A stretch of 35,662 nucleotides of DNA from assembly GCA_034189135.1 (NCBI GenBank), contig JAXHVO010000033.1, positions 1 to 35,662 on the forward strand, in the 5' to 3' direction. Of this stretch, positions 12,698-30,582 are shown piece after piece (positions within the stretch are counted from its first letter, which is position 1; every line of letters begins with the position of its first letter). Position numbers and translations under genes: made by a program. Origin of the DNA: Thermodesulfobacteriota bacterium. GTDB taxonomy: Bacteria > Desulfobacterota > Desulfobacteria > Desulfobacterales > JAUWMJ01. Under the pieces are notes generated by a model. It was given only the letters and a program-made list of their open reading frames with translations. It did no database searches and was not told the DNA's origin.

Positions 12698-12792
12698 TTG
12701 AATCAGGAGAAAACCAGCACAGTGACTGATACTGTATTGATAGCGGTGGATGATAAACATATGGCAAATCACTCAAAGTGGAAACGAATTAG

Positions 12793-13005
12793 GTAGAGGA
12801 TGGGAACCGACTTCATGCCGACCTCGATAAAATTTTTCAGGTCGTAATCAACCTTTTGCAGAATGCCCTGCAATACACCCTGGCCGGCGGCAAAGCTAAA
12901 GTTCTTATGGAAGCTTATCCGGAAGAGCTCAAGGCTGCGTCGGGACCGCGTTTTATGGCGATGAAATACTCGTATGGTTCATCCTGTCCGTTTGAACTTC
13001 ACTAA
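12793..13005 (+). pseudogene. histidine kinase HATPase remnant
   Basis: One open frame reads NRLHADLDKIFQVVINLL then QNALQYTLAGGKAKVLME and ends at TAA (13003-13005). This matches the N-box region of sensor histidine kinases, where an Asp-x-x-x-hydrophobic-Gln-Val-hydrophobic-x-Asn-Leu-Leu-x-Asn-Ala pattern precedes ATP binding. No start codon, phosphoacceptor domain, or G1/G2 boxes are present. The frame opens directly after a stop and its last 25 codons are unlike kinases. It is a gene fragment without its function. Confidence 0.65.
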
Positions 13006-13098
13006 ATCCTGTCTAATCTTTATATTCTCTTTCTTCCCTATTTAAAATCAGTGCTTATATTACTTTTTAAAGCAACAGAACATATTTATGGCAAACAG

Positions 13099-13104
13099 TA
13101 TAAT
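13099..13104 (+). promoter_or_regulatory. candidate -10 box upstream of msrAB
   Basis: A perfect TATAAT lies 30 bp before the msrAB start. The hexamer 17 bp upstream (CAGAAC) is a poor -35, so the call rests on the -10 and its position only. Confidence 0.3.
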
Positions 13105-13134
13105 GAGAATTCCTATAGTAAATAGGGGGTGAAT

Positions 13135-14244
13135 ATGATGAAAACTCTATTTATATTAATTACCATATTTATTTTTTCATTGATCGGATGCATGAAAGTC
13201 GATTCTGCTGAAACCGTGAAAGAAGACGGAATGGACACGCAAGATAGGCAGATTGCCATAGCCACATTTGCCGGGGGTTGCTTCTGGTGCACCGAATCGG
13301 ATTTTGAGAAGTTGCCAGGCGTGGTGAAGGTCATATCCGGTTACACGGGTGGGACAAAAGAAAATCCGTCCTATAAAGAAGTGTCTGCCGGAACGACAGG
13401 ACATGTCGAGGCGGTTCAGGTTTACTTCGATCCATCCAAGGTGTCTTACCAGGAACTGGTTAATTATTTCTGGAGGCATATCAACCCGACGGATTCAGGG
13501 GGGCAGTTTGTCGACCGTGGTCGGCAATATAGAAGTGCCATCTTTTACCACGATGAAAATCAAAGACGAATTGCAGAAAAATCAAAGGAGATGCTCAACG
13601 GATCGGGCAAATTCGATCAACCGGTGGTAACAGATATTCTCAAGTTTTTCGCGTTTTATTCGGCAGAGGAATATCACCAGGATTATTACAAAAAAAATCC
13701 ATTGAGATACAAGTATTACCGGTACAGCTCCGGCCGGGATCAGTTTTTAAAGAAAGTCTGGGGGGATGATATGAAAAAGCAAAAGTCAGGTGACCAAAAA
13801 AAATACACCAAGCCGGATGAGGAGACCTTGAAGAAAAAATTAACCCCTTTACAGTACAAGGTGACCAGGAAAAACGGTACGGAACCTCCCTTTAATAATG
13901 AATACTGGGATAACAAGAAAATGGGGATTTATGTGGATGTGGTTTCCGGCGAACCGTTGTTCAGTTCACTGGACAAGTTCAAATCGGGAACCGGGTGGCC
14001 AAGTTTTACCAAGCCCCTTGAAGCGGATAATATCGTTGAGAAGGTCGACCAAAGCTTTTTTATGACACGGACTGAAGTAAGGAGTAAAAACGGCGATTCA
14101 CACCTCGGGCATGTGTTCAATGACGGTCCGAAGCCAACCGGTCTTCGATACTGTATTAATTCTGCGGCACTTCGATTTATCCCGGTAGAGGATTTGGCCA
14201 AGGAAGGCTATGGAGAATATTTAACACTCTTTGGGGAAAAGTAA
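13135..14244 (+). CDS. msrAB: MsrA-MsrB fusion methionine sulfoxide reductase lipoprotein
   Basis: Bifunctional repair enzyme reducing both S- (MsrA) and R- (MsrB) methionine sulfoxide. [19 protein letters not shown] is a lipoprotein signal with Cys19 as lipid anchor, so it acts outside the cytoplasmic membrane. The MsrA domain has [15 protein letters not shown] (catalytic Cys49), [24 protein letters not shown] and [13 protein letters not shown]. The MsrB domain has [45 protein letters not shown] and [12 protein letters not shown] (catalytic Cys340). The usual zinc CxxC pairs of many MsrBs are absent, as in other fused forms. The ATG at 13135 follows AGGGGG. A second, selenocysteine-type MsrA follows 33 bp downstream. 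Electron delivery presumably comes from a periplasmic thiol system not in this window. Confidence 0.95.
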
Positions 14245-14277
14245 AACCTTCCAGAGATTTTTTTAAAGGAGGTCTAC

Positions 14278-15147
14278 ATGAATCGACATCAGATATGGTA
14301 CCGTGCATTTAATGATCCATTAGGCAGACGGTTTGGGAAAATAAAAATGATGGTTACCGATATGTCAAAAGCAGCTGTCTTTTTAGGGTTTGCTATCTTT
14401 CTTCAGGCCTGTGATTCGTTAACGACCACAAAGGAGATAAAAAATCAGCCGGTAGTAAAAGAAGTATCTGCGAAACAACTCGCAAAGCCGCCGGTAGATT
14501 TGTCAGCACCGGATAAGACAGAAACAGCGACTTTTGCCCTTGGGTGATTCTGGGGTCCTGACTCCCGGTTCGGGAGTATTGCGGGGGTTATCCGCACACG
14601 TGTCGGATACGCGGGAGGAACGAAAGAGGATCCCAGCTATCACAGTCTGGGAGACCACACGGAAACCATTCAAATCGACTATGACCCCACTGTTATTAAT
14701 TACCAAAAGCTGCTGGATGTTTTCTGGGATAGCCATGATCCTGTTCGTCCTTCGTGGTCCAGGCAATATATGGCCGCCATTTTTTACCAGAACAACGAGC
14801 AGAAAAGGCTGGCTATTCTTTCAATGGCCCGTGTGACCCAAAGGAAAAAAAAGCTTTACACCAAAATACTTCCCCTGACTGAATTTTATCGTGCAGAAGA
14901 TTATCACCAGAAATACAGGCTTCGATCGAATCGAGACCTCATGAAGGATTTCAACACCATGTATCCGCTGGGGGAGGATTTCATGAATTCAACGGCAGCG
15001 GCACGGATTAACGGGTATCTTGACGGTTATGGCTCGCTTGAAGGCCTTAAGAATGAATTGCCGGGTTTTGGGTTGTCTCCCGCAGCGGAAAGGAAACTGG
15101 TAGAGGTGGTGAAAAAACGAAAGGGAAAAATCGCCTGTGCACCATGA
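14278..15147 (+). CDS. msrA: selenocysteine MsrA lipoprotein (in-frame TGA at codon 90)
   Basis: Peptide methionine (S)-S-oxide reductase in which the catalytic residue appears to be selenocysteine. The gene begins at an ATG after AGGAGG. Codons 1-89 lead to ATFALG, then TGA (14545-14547), then FWGPDSRFGSIAGVI in the same frame. Normal MsrAs read GCFWG or GCFWC here, so TGA sits exactly at the catalytic Cys. The frame stays open for another 199 codons with clear MsrA motifs (VGYAGGTKEDPSY, HTETIQIDYDP, FWDSHDPVRPSWSRQY, EFYRAEDYHQKY). A 7-bp hairpin lies 13 nt after the TGA. FLQAC (Cys45) is a lipobox, although the preceding n-region is long. The only Cys after position 90 is Cys287, three residues from the end, a natural resolving cysteine. 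Residues about 235-280 form an added helical tail. The gene directly follows msrAB. A nonsense-mutated pseudogene is the alternative but explains the hairpin and the intact frame poorly. Confidence 0.85.
14561..14577 (+). promoter_or_regulatory. SECIS-like hairpin of the selenoprotein msrA
   Basis: ACTCCCG and CGGGAGT form a perfect 7-bp stem with a GTT loop, 13 nt after the TGA. Bacterial SECIS elements lie inside the coding region directly downstream of the UGA. They have a short apical loop that usually begins with G, at roughly 16-37 nt from the UGA; here the loop begins 21 nt after it. This fits SelB recruitment. Confidence 0.75.
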
Positions 15148-15326
15148 AAGTTGATTCATTAAGCTGTGATCTCTTTGCTTTTTACTCGCTGCCATGTTAT
15201 TTTGTCCCGCATGTTTTTATGTTCGTTTCGGTTTCTGTTAAGGATGGATCACAGATGTTAATAAAAATGGTTAAGCCTGATAAGGTCTGATGCGGTCAAA
15301 ATGCATATGGCCGGGTGATAATAATC

Positions 15327-16151
15327 ATGAATGATAAAGCCGTAGTAATTATAACCGGTGCATCAAGGGGGGTGGGGGCCTCGGTTGCGCGCTGGCTCGG
15401 CAGGACCGGCGCCAGGTTGGTGGTTGCTGCGCGTTCAAAGGATGGATTGCTGAAATGCGCGGGTGAGGTTGAAAAGCTGGGCGGCAAGGCCCTTGCAGTT
15501 CCCATGGATGTATCCGATCCTGTAGTCTGCCGTGACTTGGTGATAAAAACCCTTGACACATTCGGTCGTATAGACGGTGTGATAAACAATGCTGCGGTGG
15601 TCACCCCTTTGGCGTCCATTGAAAATGCGGATCCAGCGGACTGGAAACACAGCATGGGGGTCAATGTGATCGGCCCGTTCCACCTTACCAAATACTCTCT
15701 TTCCCAGCTCAGAATAAACCGGGGACGGATCATCAATGTGAGCAGCGGAGCGGCCATCCTCCCCATTGAATCCGCAGCTGCCTATTGTGCCTCAAAGGCT
15801 GCCTTGAACCATTTTACGTCTGTTCTCGCGGTCGAAGAGCCGAACATTACAACCGTGGCAATACGGCCGGGTGTGGTGGACACGGATATGCAGGCCTATT
15901 TAAGAAAAGAGGGGCCAAGGGTGATGCCCCGGAAAACGGCAAATTATTACCTGGATCTAAAGACGAAAGGGAAGCTTGAACCACCGGAGATACCGGCCAG
16001 GTCCATCGCCTGGCTGGCACTGCACGCTCCCGATAAAATGAGCGGGGCATTCAGGAGTTATGATGATGCTGATATTATCGGGCCGGCTTCGAAATTTTTT
16101 GGTGCCCCGGATAAAGAACCGGGAAAAAGTCCTGATCTAACTGCCATTTGA
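15327..16151 (+). CDS. short-chain dehydrogenase/reductase
   Basis: NAD(P)-dependent oxidoreductase of the classical SDR family. It has TGASRGVGASVA (dinucleotide-binding glycine motif near residues 9-20), MDVSDP, NNAA, NVSSGAA with the catalytic Ser, and YCASKAALNHF with the Tyr-x-x-x-Lys pair. Arg in VVAARSKDG after beta-2 suggests a preference for NADP. The C-terminal part is longer and more variable, as in substrate-binding regions. ATG at 15327 gives MNDKAVVIITGAS, the normal SDR N-terminus; an in-frame GTG at 15315 is possible but adds only MIII. It stands alone on the plus strand, 179 bp after the MsrA gene. Substrate unknown. Confidence 0.9.
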   Translation: MNDKAVVIITGASRGVGASVARWLGRTGARLVVAARSKDGLLKCAGEVEKLGGKALAVPMDVSDPVVCRDLVIKTLDTFGRIDGVINNAAVVTPLASIENADPADWKHSMGVNVIGPFHLTKYSLSQLRINRGRIINVSSGAAILPIESAAAYCASKAALNHFTSVLAVEEPNITTVAIRPGVVDTDMQAYLRKEGPRVMPRKTANYYLDLKTKGKLEPPEIPARSIAWLALHAPDKMSGAFRSYDDADIIGPASKFFGAPDKEPGKSPDLTAI

Positions 16152-20428: not shown

Positions 20429-21421
20429 TTATCCGGGTAACACATAAGGTTCCATTAAGTGTTCTTCCATATATCTAATTTCGTCAATGCCTGATATCAA
20501 AATGTCAGGGTCGGTCTTTAGCTCCTTTTTAGGGATTCTACCTTCATATTTGATTTTTGATAAAATATACTTTATGCAGTTGAGTCTCGCCAATTTCTTA
20601 TTATCCGATCGAATGATCGTCCAGCGGGCAATCGTCCGGTTTGTTTCGTTGAGCATCTGAAACTTTCTTACCGTGTAATCATCCCACATTTCCTGAGCCA
20701 TTCTGTCAACCGGAGAAATTTTATACTGTTTTAGCGGATCTGTCTCTCTCGAGTCAAATCGCTGTAACTGTTCCTCTTTGGAAACAGAGAAGAAAAATTT
20801 GAACAGAATAATGCCGTCTTTCACCAGCATCTCTTCCAGCATGGGTACATCTTTTAAAAAGCGTTTGTTTTGCTCATCGGTGCAAAAATCCATTACAGGT
20901 TCAACCATGGCACGATTATACCAACTGCGGTCGAAAAGTACTATTTCTCCGGCTGACGGGAGGTGTTGAATATATCTTTGAAAATACCATTGTGTCTGTT
21001 CCGTATCGTCAGGTGCGACAAGGGCCACCACCCGGGTACCCCGTGGATTCAAATGCTCAATAATCCTTTTAATCGTACCACCTTTGCCCGCGGCATCACG
21101 TCCTTCAAATAACGCCAATATGCGCAGCCCATTAGCCCTGACATGCTTTTGCATTTTTAAAAGTTCGATCTGCAGCTTGTGTAACTCCTGTTCATATTCG
21201 AGGGTAAATTCTTTTACCCAAACGGCCTTACGATTTTTCTTTTTTTTCTTATCTTTATTCTTAAAGGCGGTGTGTTCGGATAATTTTTTCTTTTTTAATT
21301 TCTTTTTAGCTTTTTTACTGATGTTCTTTTTTGCCTTTGATGAATCCTTTTCCTTGAGCGAAATAGCCTTTTCTTTTTTCGGCTTTAGCCTTTTGGATTT
21401 TTTTTTATTTTCTTTTCCCAT
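20429..21421 (-). CDS. ppk2: polyphosphate kinase 2 with Lys-rich N-terminus
   Basis: PPK2-family kinase transferring phosphate between polyphosphate and nucleotides. The P-loop is FEGRDAAGKGGTIKR (about 103-117), and the second site, VLFDRSWYNRAMVEP (about 158-173), is the PPK2 Walker-B/lid signature. SVSKEEQLQRF and KQYKISPVDRMAQEMWDDY follow as usual. The conserved domain needs about 250 residues. In front of it is a tail of about 70 residues made mainly of Lys, Ser and Glu (KKKSKRLKPKKEKA ... KKAKKKLKKKKLSEH). The ATG at 21421 has GGGGGGAAAG just before it; an upstream GTG (21433) would overlap that site. The direction of catalysis (ADP or GDP phosphorylation versus synthesis) cannot be told. 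A paralogue lies 124 bp upstream on the same strand. Confidence 0.95.
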   Translation of the reverse strand: MGKENKKKSKRLKPKKEKAISLKEKDSSKAKKNISKKAKKKLKKKKLSEHTAFKNKDKKKKKNRKAVWVKEFTLEYEQELHKLQIELLKMQKHVRANGLRILALFEGRDAAGKGGTIKRIIEHLNPRGTRVVALVAPDDTEQTQWYFQRYIQHLPSAGEIVLFDRSWYNRAMVEPVMDFCTDEQNKRFLKDVPMLEEMLVKDGIILFKFFFSVSKEEQLQRFDSRETDPLKQYKISPVDRMAQEMWDDYTVRKFQMLNETNRTIARWTIIRSDNKKLARLNCIKYILSKIKYEGRIPKKELKTDPDILISGIDEIRYMEEHLMEPYVLPG

Positions 21422-21544
21422 CTTTCCCCCCACTTTGGTAATTGGATATTATTTTCGATTTGTTATTTGTTTTTTACGGCTCATCCGGGATCGGCACTTT
21501 CACGCGCTGTCAGGTAAAAAATCGGTCCGGAGTTGCCCAAGGGG

Positions 21545-22525
21545 TCATGCCAGAGATTTGCCGTATTTTTTTTGCTGTTTTTTCATTAATTTTAGTTCCT
21601 TATCCCCTGGAATAACAATATTTGGATCCGTGGTAAAATTCAGTTTGCGGTTTCTACCTTTGTAGCGCACCGCATTGAGGATCACCTTCATGGTTTCACG
21701 CCGAGCCAGATGCTTATCGTCGGATCGGATGATATACCAGGGCGACTTTTTTTTATGCGTCTTTTTCAGTAGTATATATTTTTTTTCGGTAAAATCGTCC
21801 CATAGTTCTTGAGCCTGCAAATCCACTTCAGAAAGCTTCCACTGTCTTAACGGATCATTTTTTCTTCTCTTAAAGCGCCTGAGTTGTTCTTCTTTAGTTA
21901 CTGAAAAATAGAGCTTGAGCAGGATGGTGTGGCCGGCATCTTCGATGAAATTACTTTCATACATGACGACTTTTTTCATGAATCGCCTATATTGGCCTGA
22001 AGTGCAAAATCCCATTACCGGTTCAACCATGGCCCTGTTGTACCAGCTTCTGTCAAACAAAACGATCTCGCCGGCATGGGGGAAGTGTTCGATATATCGT
22101 TTGATATGGAGCTCTGTTTTCTGTTTTTCATTCGGTTTGCCCAGGGCAACCACACGGTACCTTTTTTCATTCATATACCGGATAATACGCCGGATTGTTC
22201 CGCCTTTTCCAGAGGCATCCCGGCCATCGAAAAGAATAACCATTTTTTTTTTGGTTTTCTCCAGATGACGCTGCATCCTTATAAGTTCTGCCTGATAGGG
22301 TTTCAACTCTTCTGAATTGTAATATTTTTCTAATACTGCCTGGACTATTTCTTCTTTATCTTTCTTTTTTAAAACCTTCAGTATTTTTTGAACCCGTTTA
22401 TCAGGAGTGCTGGATTTAATTTTCGATTCGACTTTCTGAACCACATCTCTGATCTGGGCCGTCGAACCTGGTATTCTCTTTTCTAAATCCTTTTTATTAT
22501 TTTTTTTTTGTTTCGTGGGTTTCAT
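21545..22525 (-). CDS. ppk2: polyphosphate kinase 2 paralogue
   Basis: Second PPK2-family kinase: ILFDGRDASGKGGTIRR (about 94-110), EIVLFDRSWYNRAMVEPVM (about 152-170), SVTKEEQLRRFKRRKNDPLRQW and AQELWDDFTEKKY. An N-terminal region of about 70 residues (PTKQKKNNKKDLEKR ... KILKVLKKKDKEEIVQAVLEKYY) is Lys-rich but more helical than in its neighbour. It differs considerably from the downstream PPK2 outside the catalytic motifs, so the pair is an old duplication or two acquisitions. The ATG follows a modest GGAG. It lies between the HhH protein gene (91 bp upstream) and the other PPK2, all on the minus strand, likely one transcript. Confidence 0.95.
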   Translation of the reverse strand: MKPTKQKKNNKKDLEKRIPGSTAQIRDVVQKVESKIKSSTPDKRVQKILKVLKKKDKEEIVQAVLEKYYNSEELKPYQAELIRMQRHLEKTKKKMVILFDGRDASGKGGTIRRIIRYMNEKRYRVVALGKPNEKQKTELHIKRYIEHFPHAGEIVLFDRSWYNRAMVEPVMGFCTSGQYRRFMKKVVMYESNFIEDAGHTILLKLYFSVTKEEQLRRFKRRKNDPLRQWKLSEVDLQAQELWDDFTEKKYILLKKTHKKKSPWYIIRSDDKHLARRETMKVILNAVRYKGRNRKLNFTTDPNIVIPGDKELKLMKKQQKKYGKSLA

Positions 22526-25416: not shown

Positions 25417-27306
25417 ATGAATGAAGACCAACCCAAACGCAAACTGGCCGCAATTCTCAGCGCCGATGTCAAAGGCTACAGCCGTCTCATGGGCGAGGAT
25501 GAGGAGGCCACTGTTCGCACCATCACTGCCTACCGTGAAATGATGACAGGCCTTATTAAGGAACAAAATGGACACGTGGTCGATGCAAAGGGCGACAATG
25601 TGCTGGCCGAGTTTCCCAGTGTGGTGGATGCCGTTCGCTGCGCCGTAGAGATACAAAAACAACTCAGGGTAAAAAATGACCAGCTTGCTGAAAACCGGCG
25701 GATGGAGTTTCGCATCGGAATCAATCTCGGCGATGTGATCGAAGAAGAACAGACCATCTATGGCGATGGAGTAAATGTCGCCGCCAGATTGGAAGGCCTG
25801 GCGGATGGGGGCGGCATCTGTATCTCAAGAATGGCTTTTGACAGTGTCAAAAACAAGCTGGACCTTGGCTATGAGTATCTGGGTGAGCATTCGGTCAAGA
25901 ACATTGTTGATCCGGTGCGTGTCTATAAGGTGCTGATGGAGCCCGAATATGCTGGGGAGGTGATCGGAGAGGAAAAACCGAAACCAAAACAATGGCGTTT
26001 TGCAGCCATAGTCTCAGCCGTTGTGCTAATTGTGGTGGTTGGAGCTTTTTCTGTTTGGGATTTCTATTTCCGGCCACCACCGATTGAGCCGGCCTCTATC
26101 GAAAAGATGGCCCACTTTCTTCCCGATAAGCCTTCCATTGCAGTACTGCCCTTTGACAACATGAGCGGAGACCCTGAACAGGATTACTTTGCTGATGGAA
26201 TCAGTGAAAATATCATTTCCGCCCTTTCCAGGATTTCCCAACTTTTTGTGATTGCTCGAAACTCCACATTCACTTATAAGGGCAAGCCAGTCAAAGTCCA
26301 GAAAGTGAGTGAGGAGCTTGGGGTTAGGTACGTGCTAGAGGGGAGTGTCCAGAAATCGGGCAGTCGCTTGCGGGTTACTGCTCAGCTTATTGACGCGATT
26401 AAGGGGAATCACTTATGGTCTGAAAAATATGATCGAAAACTGAACGATTTATTTGTGGTTCAAGACGAGGTCACAAAAGAAATCATCACGGCCCTTAATG
26501 TAGAACTGACACAAGGGGAGCAGGCCCGAACAGCTGCAAGAGGCACGGAAAACCTTGAAGCTTATCTGAAGGCCATGCAAGCACGTCAGAGTATATATCG
26601 GCACAATGTTGAGAGCAATGCTTTGGCCCAGCAGTTGGCGCAAGAGGCCCTTGCCCTGGACCCAAAATATGCCATGGCTAGTCGATTACTGGGCGTAACT
26701 CACATGCATGATATATTGCTAGGTAGGAGTAAATCCCCTAAAGAGTCTTTTGGCAAGGCCATAGCATTGGTGAAAAAGGCAGTCGAATTGGATGATCTAG
26801 ATGGTTATAGTCATGCCACGTTGGGTTTTTTGCTTGTCATGATACGGCAGTATGACAAGGCCGTTGCAGAAGCTGAGCAGGGTGTCGCGCTTGACCCTAA
26901 TGTTGCTGATATCTATGGATGGTTGGGCATGATATATAGGTATGTGGGCAGGTGGGAGGACGCCATTACGGCATATGAAAAAGGGATACGCCTTAATCCT
27001 ATCCCTCCAAATTTTTACTTGTTCGGGATAGGTTTGGCCTACGCTTGGACGGGACGGTATGAAGAGGCAATAACAGAATTGAGAAAAGCGATTTACAACG
27101 AGCCTGATTCACCATATAGTCGCCTGTATGCGACTGCGGCTTATAGTATGGCCGGACGAGATGATGAAGCTCGGATTGAGGCAGCTGAACTGCTGAGGAT
27201 AAATCCCAAGTTTTCTCTCAAGAAATGGGGAAAGAGTCTCAAATATAAGAATCAAGATGATCAAGATCGATTAATGAGTGCCTGGAGGAAAGCTGGGCTA
27301 AAGTGA
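25417..27306 (+). CDS. class III nucleotide cyclase with TolB-like and TPR domains
   Basis: Membrane-anchored signalling protein of 629 residues. Residues about 8-170 are a class III adenylate/guanylate cyclase catalytic domain: LSADVKGYSRLMGEDEEAT (metal Asp17), KGDNVLAEF (Asp60), INLGDVI, and DGVNVAARLE (Asn120, Arg124). The catalytic set looks complete, and the domain is of the type usually called adenylate cyclase. One transmembrane helix lies at about 193-218. Residues about 238-375 form a TolB/FlgO-like domain (KPSIAVLPFDNMSGDPEQDYF, RYVLEGSVQKSGSRLRVTAQ). The rest is TPR-like repeats (YDKAVAEAEQGVALDPN, WEDAITAYEKGIRLNP, YEEAITELRKAIYNEPDS). A modest AGAGGT precedes the start. The N-terminal 170 residues are nearly identical to those of the next gene. 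Confidence 0.93.
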   Translation: MNEDQPKRKLAAILSADVKGYSRLMGEDEEATVRTITAYREMMTGLIKEQNGHVVDAKGDNVLAEFPSVVDAVRCAVEIQKQLRVKNDQLAENRRMEFRIGINLGDVIEEEQTIYGDGVNVAARLEGLADGGGICISRMAFDSVKNKLDLGYEYLGEHSVKNIVDPVRVYKVLMEPEYAGEVIGEEKPKPKQWRFAAIVSAVVLIVVVGAFSVWDFYFRPPPIEPASIEKMAHFLPDKPSIAVLPFDNMSGDPEQDYFADGISENIISALSRISQLFVIARNSTFTYKGKPVKVQKVSEELGVRYVLEGSVQKSGSRLRVTAQLIDAIKGNHLWSEKYDRKLNDLFVVQDEVTKEIITALNVELTQGEQARTAARGTENLEAYLKAMQARQSIYRHNVESNALAQQLAQEALALDPKYAMASRLLGVTHMHDILLGRSKSPKESFGKAIALVKKAVELDDLDGYSHATLGFLLVMIRQYDKAVAEAEQGVALDPNVADIYGWLGMIYRYVGRWEDAITAYEKGIRLNPIPPNFYLFGIGLAYAWTGRYEEAITELRKAIYNEPDSPYSRLYATAAYSMAGRDDEARIEAAELLRINPKFSLKKWGKSLKYKNQDDQDRLMSAWRKAGLK

Positions 27307-27339
27307 GGCCAGTCGAGGTAATACATTCTGAGGGAAACC

Positions 27340-27435
27340 ATGAAAAGATATATACAGAAGGTACTGGCACAAAGCCTCCGAGGCACCATTATGCCTCCTT
27401 GGAGGCTTTTGTATTTTAGGGCCTTACCGAGCTAA
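27340..27435 (+). CDS. short leader peptide 2 upstream of second cyclase gene
   Basis: ATG after GAGGG-AAACC, reading MKRYIQKVLAQSLRGTIM and on to TAA at 27433-27435 (31 residues). Its first 13 residues match leader peptide 1 (MKKCLQKVPQYSL) at about half of positions. The hairpin at 27372-27408 lies within the peptide's own coding sequence. The conserved part is the N-terminus and the hairpin; the longer C-terminus results from the loss of the in-stem stop. Confidence 0.45.
   Translation: MKRYIQKVLAQSLRGTIMPPWRLLYFRALPS
27372..27420 (+). terminator. hairpin between the two cyclase genes
   Basis: AAGCCTCC pairs with GGAGGCTT (8 bp), with an inner AGGCA/TGCCT stem, followed by TTTTGTATTTTA. 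It has the shape of an intrinsic terminator for the upstream cyclase gene and sits 54-80 bp before the next start. It corresponds in position to the hairpin at 25191-25225. Confidence 0.65.
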
Positions 27436-27489
27436 CTTTTCCATACCTATTTCTGTATTCCGCTTTCACCGTTTTTAGGAGGTGATTCC

Positions 27490-30400
27490 ATGACTGAAGA
27501 GCGAGCCAAACGCAAACTGGCCGCCATTCTCAGCGCCGATGTCAAAGGGTACAGCCGCCTCATGGGCGAGGATGAGGAGGCCACTGTTCGCACCATCACC
27601 GGATACCGCGAGGTGATGACCGGTCTTATTAAGGGACAAAACGGCAGGGTGGTGGATGCCAAGGGTGACAATGTGCTGGCCGAGTTTCCCAGTGTGGTGG
27701 ATGCCGTTCGCTGTGCTGTAGAGATCCAAAAACAACTCAAGGTAAAAAATGACCAAATTGCTGAAAACCGGCGGATGGAGTTTCGCATCGGAATCAATCT
27801 TGGCGATGTGATCGAAGAGGAACAGACTATTTATGGAGATGGGGTGAATATTGCTGCTCGATTGGAGGGTCTGGCGGATGGCGGAGGAATCTGCATTTCA
27901 AGAACAGCCTTCGACCAGGTTAAGAACAAGCTGGAACTCGGTTATGAGTATCTGGGTGAACATTCAGTTAAGAACATCGCTGAGGCAGTTCGGGTCTATA
28001 AAGTACTCTCAAAGACTGAATACGCAGGCAAGGTCATCGGCGAAGCAAAGCTAAAACCAAAGCAATGGCGATGGGCTGGGATTGGTGCAGTGGCTATACT
28101 CATCATCGTGGCAGGTGTCTTTGCAATTTGGAACTTCTATCTCCGCCCAGATGTCGAGCCTGCCTCTGTGGAAAGGATGGCATATCCCCTGCCAAAAAAG
28201 CCTTCCATAGCAGTGCTGCCTTTCGACAACCTCACTGGTGACTCCCAGCAGGAGTATTTAAGTGACGGGATGACCGAGGAGATCATCATAGCTCTCTCCA
28301 AGGTTCCCTATATGTTTGTGATCGACCGCCACTCCACGTTTAGCTACAAGGGGAAGCCGGTGAAGATTGCCCAGGTGGCAGAGGAGTTGGGCGTGCGATA
28401 TGTGTTGGAGGGCAGTGTCCGCAGGGCTGATGACCGGGTACGCGTAACGGTCCAGCTGATCGATGCGATCAAGGGGCATCACCTCTGGGCGGAACGATAC
28501 GAGAGGGAGCTGAAAGACACCTTTGCACTGCAAGATGAGATCACGAGGAAGATCCTGTCAGCACTGGATGTGAGGTTGACAAGGGGGGAACAAGCCAACA
28601 CAGCGCGTAAAGTTACGGGCAACCTCGAAGCCTATCTCAATGCCTTGCAAGCCCATTGGTATATACACCACCATAGGAATAAAGAAGGGCTTCTTCAGGC
28701 TCGGAAGCTGGCAGAGCAGGCCATAGCCCTGGACCCCGAGTATGCAAGACCATACATTACCATGGCAGGCTGCCATATCAGTGAGATTTGGTTTGGCTTG
28801 AGCAAATCCCCCAAGAAATCTCTTGAGCAGGCTCTCCAATTGGTCCAAAAGGCCATTTCCATAGATGAGTCCAACCCGAGCTGCTACAGGAAATTGAGTG
28901 CTATCTACATGTCTAAAAGGCAGTATGAGAGGGCCATTGCTGAAGCGGAGCGGGCTATCGCCCTTGATCCAAATGGGGCCGATGCCCATTCACAGTTGGG
29001 GATTGCACTGGTCTACTCTGGCAGGCAGCAGGAAGCCATCGCGCCTTTAGAAAAGGCGATTCGCATCAACCCTCTCCCTCCTTCCTTGTATTTCGGTCGC
29101 TTAGGCGTTGCCTATCGCGATACGGGACGCTATGAGGAGGCGATTGCACAATTTAAGAAAGCCATTAATCTCGCACCCGACGCTTATATTCCCCACCTTT
29201 TTTTGGCCTCGACGTATAGTTTAGCAGGCCTTGATGAGGAGGCCCGTACTGAAGCATCAGAAGTGCTCAGAATACAACCCAAGTTCTCGCTCGAACGTTT
29301 TAAAAAGAGACTCTTTTACAAAAATAAGGCCGATAAGGAGCTCGTTATTGGCGCCTTGCGAAAGGCTGGTCTTCCCGAACAACCACCACTCCCCCTCCCT
29401 GACAAACCCTCCATTGCCGTGCTGCCATTCACAAACATGAGTGATGACCCCAAGCAGGAGTATTTCAGTGATGGGATTACTGAATCCATTATTACGGCTT
29501 TGTCAAAAGTGGAGAAACTATTTGTGATTGCCCGCAACTCCACCTTTACCTATAAAGGCAAGCCGGTGAAAGTTCAGCAGGTGGCCCAGGACCTTGGCGT
29601 ACAGTACATATTGGAGGGGAGCGTTCAGGAATCCGCCGGTCGTATCCGGATAACCGCACAGTTGATTGACGCTCGAAAGGGCCATCACCTGTGGGCTGAA
29701 CGGTATGATCGTAGTTTGAAAGAAATATTTGATCTTCAGGATGAGATTACCATGAAGATCATTACGGCCCTTGAGGTGAAATTGACTGAAGGTGAGCAGG
29801 CTTTGGTAGCTGGTAGCGGGACAGATAATCTCGATGCATACTTAAAAATCCTGCAGGCACGTGATTTGAAACGGCACCAAACTGTTGAAAATAATTATAG
29901 GGCCCGGCAGCTTGCCAAGGAAGCCATTGCGCTTGATCCCGGGTATGCACAAGCCTATCGGTGGTTGGGCGGAACGCACGTCATAGATGTGTGGTTGAGC
30001 TCCACCCAATCGCCTCGAGAGTCTCTAAAAAAAGCCATGGAGCTCGCTCAAAAAGCCATATCCCTGGATGACTCCCTGGGAGGTGCCCATGGTCTGTTGG
30101 GCAATATCTATATCATGAGAAGGGATTATGAAAAGGGCATTCGGGAAGTACAGCGGGCGGTTGATCTTGAACCGAACGGCGCTGACGCCCATGTATTTTT
30201 GGGTATGGGGCTTAAATATGTAGATAGAGCAGATGAGGCCGTTGCGATCCTTAAAAAAGCCATACGTCTGGACCCACACACGCCGGGCTGGTATATGCAC
30301 ATTCTAGCTTCGGCCTATAGAGATATTAGCAGGTATGAAGAAGCAATGAAATGGGGTGAGAAAGCGGTTCAGCAGAATCCCAAAAATGTTCTTTCTCGTG

Positions 30401-30582
30401 TGATACTTTGCAGCATTTACAGCCTGGCAGGCCGAATGCATGAAGCCCGTGACCAGGCCAAAGAAATTATGACAATCAATCCCAAGTTTTCTGTGGAGCA
30501 AGTCGCAAGAACAGACCCGCAAAAAAACAAAGATGTGAAAAAGCGTTATATTGATGCTTTGCGCAAAGCAGGATTGAAGTGA
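27490..30582 (+). CDS. class III nucleotide cyclase with duplicated TolB-like/TPR modules
   Basis: 1030-residue relative of the preceding gene. The cyclase domain (about 8-170) keeps Asp17 (LSADVKGYS), KGDNVLAEF and DGVNIAARLE. A transmembrane helix follows at about 193-218. A first TolB-like domain spans about 236-370 (KPSIAVLPFDNLTGDSQQEYL, RYVLEGSVRRADDRVRVTVQ), then TPR-like repeats to about 620. A second TolB-like domain spans about 636-770 (DKPSIAVLPFTNMSDDPKQEY), followed by more TPRs to the end. The second half resembles the C-terminal half of the upstream protein more than its own first half in places (LFVIARNSTFTYKGKPVKVQ), suggesting recombination between the two genes. Very strong ribosome site (AGGAGGTGA). 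The likely role is to sense a cell-envelope or periplasmic state and make a cyclic nucleotide; the signal is unknown. Confidence 0.93.
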   Translation: MTEERAKRKLAAILSADVKGYSRLMGEDEEATVRTITGYREVMTGLIKGQNGRVVDAKGDNVLAEFPSVVDAVRCAVEIQKQLKVKNDQIAENRRMEFRIGINLGDVIEEEQTIYGDGVNIAARLEGLADGGGICISRTAFDQVKNKLELGYEYLGEHSVKNIAEAVRVYKVLSKTEYAGKVIGEAKLKPKQWRWAGIGAVAILIIVAGVFAIWNFYLRPDVEPASVERMAYPLPKKPSIAVLPFDNLTGDSQQEYLSDGMTEEIIIALSKVPYMFVIDRHSTFSYKGKPVKIAQVAEELGVRYVLEGSVRRADDRVRVTVQLIDAIKGHHLWAERYERELKDTFALQDEITRKILSALDVRLTRGEQANTARKVTGNLEAYLNALQAHWYIHHHRNKEGLLQARKLAEQAIALDPEYARPYITMAGCHISEIWFGLSKSPKKSLEQALQLVQKAISIDESNPSCYRKLSAIYMSKRQYERAIAEAERAIALDPNGADAHSQLGIALVYSGRQQEAIAPLEKAIRINPLPPSLYFGRLGVAYRDTGRYEEAIAQFKKAINLAPDAYIPHLFLASTYSLAGLDEEARTEASEVLRIQPKFSLERFKKRLFYKNKADKELVIGALRKAGLPEQPPLPLPDKPSIAVLPFTNMSDDPKQEYFSDGITESIITALSKVEKLFVIARNSTFTYKGKPVKVQQVAQDLGVQYILEGSVQESAGRIRITAQLIDARKGHHLWAERYDRSLKEIFDLQDEITMKIITALEVKLTEGEQALVAGSGTDNLDAYLKILQARDLKRHQTVENNYRARQLAKEAIALDPGYAQAYRWLGGTHVIDVWLSSTQSPRESLKKAMELAQKAISLDDSLGGAHGLLGNIYIMRRDYEKGIREVQRAVDLEPNGADAHVFLGMGLKYVDRADEAVAILKKAIRLDPHTPGWYMHILASAYRDISRYEEAMKWGEKAVQQNPKNVLSRVILCSIYSLAGRMHEARDQAKEIMTINPKFSVEQVARTDPQKNKDVKKRYIDALRKAGLK

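Follow-up and report, generated by a model that had tools for sequence, protein, structure and literature searches.

Methionine sulfoxide reductases of the MsrA type act through a catalytic residue that attacks methionine-S-sulfoxide, and bacterial SECIS elements follow the rule of a G in the apical loop. The apical-loop rule is also given in a figure legend of PMC2398784. MsrA with selenocysteine (Sec) at the catalytic position is a listed selenoprotein family, with PF01625/COG0225 and a GUFWG/H motif, in the available excerpts of PMC2398784, PMC13188914 and PMC9312934. Its closest described member is CoMsrA of Clostridium oremlandii (PDB 4LWJ, 4LWK, 4LWL, 4LWM and 4U66). According to excerpts of PMC4479559, CoMsrA is reduced by glutaredoxin but not by thioredoxin, and can dimerise through its catalytic residue. 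Its active site is described in an excerpt of PMC4333827 as comprising Tyr47, Glu55, Gln89, Tyr90, His137 and Tyr140.

The locus studied here lies in a window of 35,662 nucleotides, which is an entire contig (G000:C33) of a 4.63-Mb genome in 140 contigs, 95.5% complete. On the forward strand at 14278-15147, following a Shine-Dalgarno-like AAGGAGGT at 14266-14273, 4 nt upstream of the ATG at 14278, a frame of 289 residues is interrupted at codon 90 by a TGA (14545-14547, forward strand), which we read as Sec at the catalytic position of the G-U-F-W-G motif (in full, ATFALG-U-FWGPD). The frame continues for 199 further codons to a TGA at 15145-15147. With the TGA read as Sec, the MsrA catalytic domain PF01625 matched residues 83-218 (14524-14931, forward strand; E=9.4e-42), and the C-terminal helical domain PF20939 (MsrA_helical), whose full name is “Selenoprotein methionine sulfoxide reductase A, helical domain”, matched residues 233-268 of the read-through protein (14974-15081, forward strand; E 8e-6; score 26 bits, the cut-off being 23.7). 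The preliminary description of this DNA had placed an in-frame TGA at the MsrA catalytic Cys, with MsrA motifs continuing over the next 199 codons; the domain matches, which span the TGA, and the TGA found in relatives agree with that placement. It had also foreseen that conventional annotation would split the gene, and open reading frame (ORF) calling with table 11 did yield two pieces, one of 89 aa at 14278-14547 and one of 125 aa at 14770-15147. An AlphaFold model of the protein (mean pLDDT 86.7) has the CoMsrA fold with its helical domain, and its best PDB match is CoMsrA 4LWJ (E 4.4e-22, 46% identity, TM 0.90 by target length). When the CoMsrA active-site residues were mapped by hand onto an alignment of 29 rows (A1), their columns were invariant, that of Tyr140 nearly so. 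We put at roughly 0.93 the probability that 14278-15147 is a Sec-MsrA gene whose UGA is read as selenocysteine; the product is a predicted CoMsrA-type peptide-methionine (S)-S-oxide reductase. The terminal TGA at 15145-15147 was considered as a second Sec codon and judged an ordinary stop; TGA ends 34 of 94 TGA-MsrA genes, counted with L180 excluded.

Evidence for this reading came from the conservation of codon 90. Among 101 distinct helical-domain MsrA genes, assembled by dropping duplicates (loci whose DNA near the site was identical) and partial genes (matches that stopped short of query residue 235), the codon was TGA in 95, TGT in four and TGC in two. The preliminary description had proposed that close homologues with a sense codon other than Cys and no hairpin would indicate a nonsense mutation; in the relatives the codon is always TGA or Cys. 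By record title, these relatives belong to Thermodesulfobacteriota, Chloroflexota, Synergistota and other taxa. A species-genome collection scanned with the protein yielded 41 loci, of which 28 have the helical domain (22 with TGA, six with Cys), and all 13 plain MsrA loci (L053-L065), matched in the catalytic part only, have Cys at the Sec position. All 51 long matches (E<=3.2e-87) in a class draw of 389 genomes contain TGA; they come from 50 genomes, including the one studied here. So does every one of the 28 matches that reached E<=1e-60 in a phylum draw of 395 genomes, with two TGA codons in one of these matches; the two draws overlap, 2 phylum-draw genomes being common to both. A fragment in G275 (model positions 21-124, one TGA) was left uncounted, the match in G186 (model positions 106-254, stop-free inside) does not reach codon 90, and in a later batch three of 27 new loci (L161, L162 and L177) were duplicates, leaving 24. 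Additional recoding was considered for relatives with internal TAG or TAA codons (G072, G244 and G061) and was rejected, as reading ends at those stops; the frames of the corresponding loci (L102, L113 and L109, respectively) end there, 190 codons past Sec. In a separate case, L180 (G737:C238), a second TGA occupies a Trp codon two codons 3′ of the Sec codon, an error or a sign of decay. In L051, the Cys form of Halanaerobium salsuginis, the helical-domain MsrA frame runs on into an MsrB-like part.

Additional evidence came from the RNA downstream of the TGA. The preliminary description had reported a perfect 7-bp stem with a GTT loop beginning 13 nt past the TGA, and the coordinates were confirmed: a SECIS-like hairpin, ACTCCCG-GTT-CGGGAGT, occupies 14561-14577 on the forward strand, with arms at 14561-14567 and 14571-14577, the loop at 14568-14570 and a 13-nt spacer at 14548-14560, which places it at positions 17-33 counting from the T of the TGA. 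Across the seven hairpin pairs of 94 distinct TGA sequences, 87.8% of cells were standard-paired and 58 double-sided changes were seen, as against 21-61% and 0-16 in a control with the 3′ arm slid by 1-3 bases, although the cells are not independent since the 94 sequences are kin. Among the compensatory changes are A-T in place of C-G at pair 18-32 and G-C in place of T-A at pair 19-31. The apical loop is GTT in 90 of these sequences and GTA in four. All four inner pairs were standard in 79 of the 94 TGA sequences but in none of the six Cys sequences; the other 15 TGA sequences lack at least one standard inner pair.

Because dinucleotide shuffling of segments of 40, 46 and 86 nt showed no excess of folding (z -0.42, -0.89 and -0.50), the hairpin was assessed by synonymous recoding. 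The energy of bases 15-36, a stretch set from the hairpin that the preliminary description had named, was lower in the window than in recoded sequences (p=0.0015, z=-3.9), and p<=0.05 was reached in 83 of 95 TGA genes, against one of six Cys genes; in the other 12 TGA genes the hairpin was non-significant. No hairpin signal was found at the matching place in the Cys-type MsrA part of the neighbouring MsrAB (p 0.62) or in the third MsrA of the genome (p 1.0), and no Rfam family matched the hairpin region. Since synonymous redraws rarely equal the hairpin energy in TGA genes, protein constraint does not account for the conservation of the hairpin. The case for the hairpin rests on this conservation; the single sequence alone would not have convinced us. 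Several features by which a bacterial selenoprotein is recognised are found here: a hairpin just 3′ of the UGA, with a G in its loop, is conserved along with the UGA, and Cys homologues are found at the Sec position (six of the 101 helical-domain genes and 13 of 13 plain MsrA genes). Two of the Cys genes, L033 and L043, are sister MsrA genes of Dehalococcoidia with TGC at the Sec position. L033 retains a 12-bp hairpin and is the one Cys gene with a significant signal, while L043 is not significant. L033 probably reflects a recent change from Sec to Cys, its hairpin being a putative fossil SECIS.

The genome encodes the selenocysteine machinery, the absence of which (of selB or selC) had been named beforehand as grounds for abandoning the interpretation. 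It has selA on contig C37 (603.9 bits), selB on C140 (374.6 bits), selD on C62 (378.9 bits; itself with an in-frame TGA, read GSGUASK) and a tRNA-Sec on C30 (75.4 bits), with the anticodon UCA according to ARAGORN. Among 14 control genomes, the cut-off was exceeded by one for selA, two for selB, two for selD and five for tRNA-Sec, so the tRNA model is the least specific of the four. SelB was sought in 52 genomes, comprising G068, G186 and the 50 that gave long matches; it exceeded its cut-off in 45 of them, and in 28 of the 29 of high quality. It fell below in G091, G196, G262, G355, G374, G387 and G388, of which G091, 97% complete, is the sole high-quality genome. The conserved codon, the covarying hairpin and a genome that has selA, selB, selC and selD together support the overall interpretation as a selenocysteine MsrA. 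The genome also has a glutaredoxin-like gene with a TGA in its active site (GKNTUPFT; C128:5233-5409, L158). Reportedly, going by the title of a 2011 study by Kim, a selenoprotein glutaredoxin reduces selenoprotein MsrA.

Three other explanations for the TGA can be weighed against decoding as Sec. As the assembly is a draft of 140 contigs, an ordinary Cys-MsrA might be suspected in which the TGA arose by nonsense mutation or by a sequencing error. However, 95 of 101 relatives, which span several phyla, have the same TGA, with the hairpin conserved, and the frame is intact, with the active-site residues conserved; because the TGA is conserved, we regard this explanation as refuted, its probability being close to nil. 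Alternatively, the TGA could be a real stop, in which case the gene would give an 89-residue lipoprotein plus a separate truncated MsrA with its start at 14770. While this would match the ORFs called with table 11, the second ORF has no catalytic residue and misses the beginning of the domain, and protein conservation is continuous across the TGA; we consider two separate products extremely improbable.

A third possibility, that the UGA is decoded as Cys and not as Sec, is raised by a second selB (C62, 303.5 bits, 29% identical to the first), which has a UCA tRNA just upstream (G000:C62:115833-115922; the whole tRNA and selB locus spans G000:C62:115833-117874, in L005, L013 and L149:2334-4381). 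The tRNA has U73, A1:U72, an 8-bp acceptor stem and a long variable arm, and its T-stem is compatible with 4 bp plus a bulged A. In an excerpt of PMC7609411, the features of the C62 pair are given for selC* tRNA-Cys together with selB* in Desulfobacterales and Syntrophobacterales. The selC*-type tRNA also goes by the name tRNA-ReC. A 2018 study by Vargas-Rodriguez, listed among the references of PMC8762117, is said, by its title, to concern a set of this kind. The pair on C62 resembles this known set, and its identity bases fit a reading as Cys. Decoding as Cys would also be in keeping with the C-terminal R-x-G-x-x-R stretch, which SelB* keeps as SelB does, and with the activity of CoMsrA after a change of Sec to Cys, though the Sec form is 20-fold more active (excerpt of PMC4479559). 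On the other side, both ARAGORN and the Rfam tRNA-Sec model (53.4 bits against a cut-off of 47) call the C62 tRNA a tRNA-Sec. Moreover, a second SelB-like match of at least 220 bits was found in only seven of 52 genomes (the one studied here, G109, G153, G227, G229, G034 and G245), a count that may be low because genes can be missing from drafts; the single-contig genomes G134, G351 and G352 each have one such match and keep the TGA. Finally, a gene needing just Cys would be expected to have TGY, as six relatives do. Given the rarity of the second SelB and this expectation, exclusive decoding as Cys is very unlikely. Since the genome has a selC*/selB*-like set, some Cys insertion at the msrA UGA, and with it dual decoding, is possible in principle. 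Such insertion probably does not explain the retention of the UGA, because the second SelB occurs in so few genomes and is absent from G134, G351 and G352. A cysS* gene directly after selB* was considered and rejected, the two following ORFs being HGD-D and BcrAD_BadFG. Elsewhere in the genome, a protein of 761 aa at C27:31833-32738 (L153:1066-3351, minus strand) looks from its sequence like a fusion of a cysteine synthase with a CysRS domain; a normal CysRS is encoded on C129.

If the UGA is read as Sec, where does the enzyme act? The N-terminus carries a predicted lipoprotein signal peptide (14278-14412, forward strand), found by pattern match, with the lipobox L-Q-A-C ending in Cys45 (codon 14410-14412) and Asp next. 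The segment AIFLQAC fits the lipobox pattern, which is of the PROSITE type, and the n-region is long, about 30 residues. From this pattern match, MsrA is quite likely to be lipid-anchored. The strict pattern was matched by 38 of 95 TGA genes, or by 41 with His permitted at -2. At the other end of the protein lies a candidate resolving residue, Cys287 (codon 15136-15138, forward strand), which the translation confirms as the sole Cys after codon 90, near the C-terminus, as initially noted. The tail that holds it was modelled at low confidence (pLDDT under 50), so the AlphaFold distance between Cys287 and Sec90 was uninformative. A Cys within the last 15 residues was found in 17 of 93 TGA relatives, counted without L118 (165 codons past Sec) and L180 (second TGA). 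Within the seven-member clade of the window, only L078, of the same genus, is without it; outside that clade in the tree it is present in L039, L041 and L077. Among loci outside the tree it occurs in L165, L168, L170, L171, L174, L178, L185 and L186, and the tail is of the C-P form in five of these eight. This distribution is consistent with repeated gain or loss and fits a resolving role, to which, for Cys287, we give about an even chance.

We propose the following mechanism. UGA90 would be decoded as Sec by tRNA-Sec(UCA) and SelB, directed by the hairpin 13 nt 3′ of it, and the precursor, after export, would receive a lipid anchor on Cys45 and face the periplasm. Sec90 would then attack the Met-S-sulfoxide of oxidised envelope proteins, yielding methionine and a selenenic acid on the enzyme. 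In the clade of the window, Cys287 may resolve this intermediate as a selenosulfide, to be reduced by an envelope thiol donor, while relatives without a tail Cys would operate in the 1-Cys manner of CoMsrA. The R-sulfoxide would be handled by MsrAB next door. Glutathione and glutaredoxin are not expected outside the cytoplasm; if the anchor is real, another electron route would therefore be needed, and selenium would serve to repair proteins beyond the cytoplasm. One doubtful combination, taken as a whole, is a periplasmic Sec-MsrA with a lipid anchor, a resolving tail Cys (making it a selenosulfide 2-Cys variant) and a dual-decoded UGA, read as Sec through tRNA-Sec and SelB while selenium lasts and as Cys through the selC* tRNA and SelB* in selenium shortage. 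If dual decoding does occur, envelope repair would go on more slowly in selenium shortage instead of the enzyme being truncated. This genome is a natural test case for the backing up of a selenoprotein by a Sec-like tRNA-Cys with SelB*.

The gene directly upstream, at 13129-14244 on the forward strand, encodes an MsrA-MsrB fusion with a Cys catalytic codon (13279) and a lipobox-like SLIGC. Lipobox-like motifs are present in both neighbours, LQAC in MsrA and LIGC in MsrAB. Because MsrAB ends 33 nt before the MsrA ATG at 14278, the two genes are probably co-transcribed as one operon; a promoter and terminator scan of 12700-15350 gave no excess over shuffles. The preliminary description had called a lipid-anchored form beside an MsrAB fusion unusual. 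The lipobox itself is not, occurring in 38 of 95 TGA genes, but the neighbour is: a complete MsrAB fusion adjoins the gene at only two of 77 loci (the window and L106), 69 of which had at least 1.2 kb of upstream sequence. The largest cluster of neighbouring ORFs is Msr, including the MsrAB of the window, at 12 of 101 loci, with 11 of 13 ORFs upstream on the same strand; this count is a lower bound, as MsrB also lies beside L028 and L049, and L051 is a fusion. The next cluster (10 loci, mixed positions) appears by reading to be sensor-kinase-like. Among neighbours of the 101 loci, with clusters judged by reading, no recurrent gene was recognised as a redox partner or electron donor. One DsbD-type membrane protein is encoded in the genome, on C130, and no link between it and msrA was found. 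Other observations in the window concern an open stretch at 12799-13002 (forward strand), between a nitroreductase gene and MsrAB, which translates to DGNRLHADLDKIFQVVINLLQNALQYT... and reads like a fragment of a histidine-kinase ATPase, with no complete such gene there; two tandem adenylate/guanylate-cyclase and TPR proteins of 629 and 1030 aa (25417-30582, forward strand); and two adjoining PPK2 polyphosphate kinase genes (20429-22525, reverse strand).

The preliminary description had recognised that selenocysteine MsrA was known before, and the gene belongs to this already known family, listed in selenoprotein catalogues (excerpts of PMC2398784, PMC13188914 and PMC9312934). Novelty may lie in the predicted export and lipid anchoring, combined with a tail Cys whose role is likewise predicted. 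Among the titles listed by a literature search that covered few subscription papers, and hence gives weak evidence of novelty, none concerned a lipid-anchored Sec-MsrA, and the word lipoprotein is absent from PMC13188914 and PMC9312934. Table 11 ORF calling splits the present gene, and genes of its kind occur in 50 of the 389 class-draw genomes, the present one included.

Compared with the Sec-MsrA proteins of the Global Ocean Sampling and prokaryotic catalogues, the likeness is at the level of the family, as judged from the descriptions in the excerpted sources (PMC2398784, PMC13188914, PMC9312934). The selC* tRNA-Cys and selB* described in the excerpt of PMC7609411 have a counterpart with the described features in this genome, and action of that set on msrA is hypothetical. 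The adjacent MsrAB has in common with the Sec-MsrA the repair of Met-sulfoxide and a lipobox-like N-terminus, as well as its location, but differs in its Cys catalytic residue, its fused MsrB and its non-significant hairpin. The closest parallel is with CoMsrA, which has the same GUFWG motif, PF01625 and helical domains and Sec, with 46% identity over 204 alignment columns and a like fold. One important difference is that CoMsrA has 209 residues, Sec at position 16 and no Cys (excerpt of PMC4479559), whereas the protein of the window has a predicted lipobox signal peptide, for which CoMsrA has no room because of the position of its Sec, and a tail Cys. With Cys287, the protein of the window departs from the 1-Cys property of CoMsrA, a property that we do not count as defining the family.
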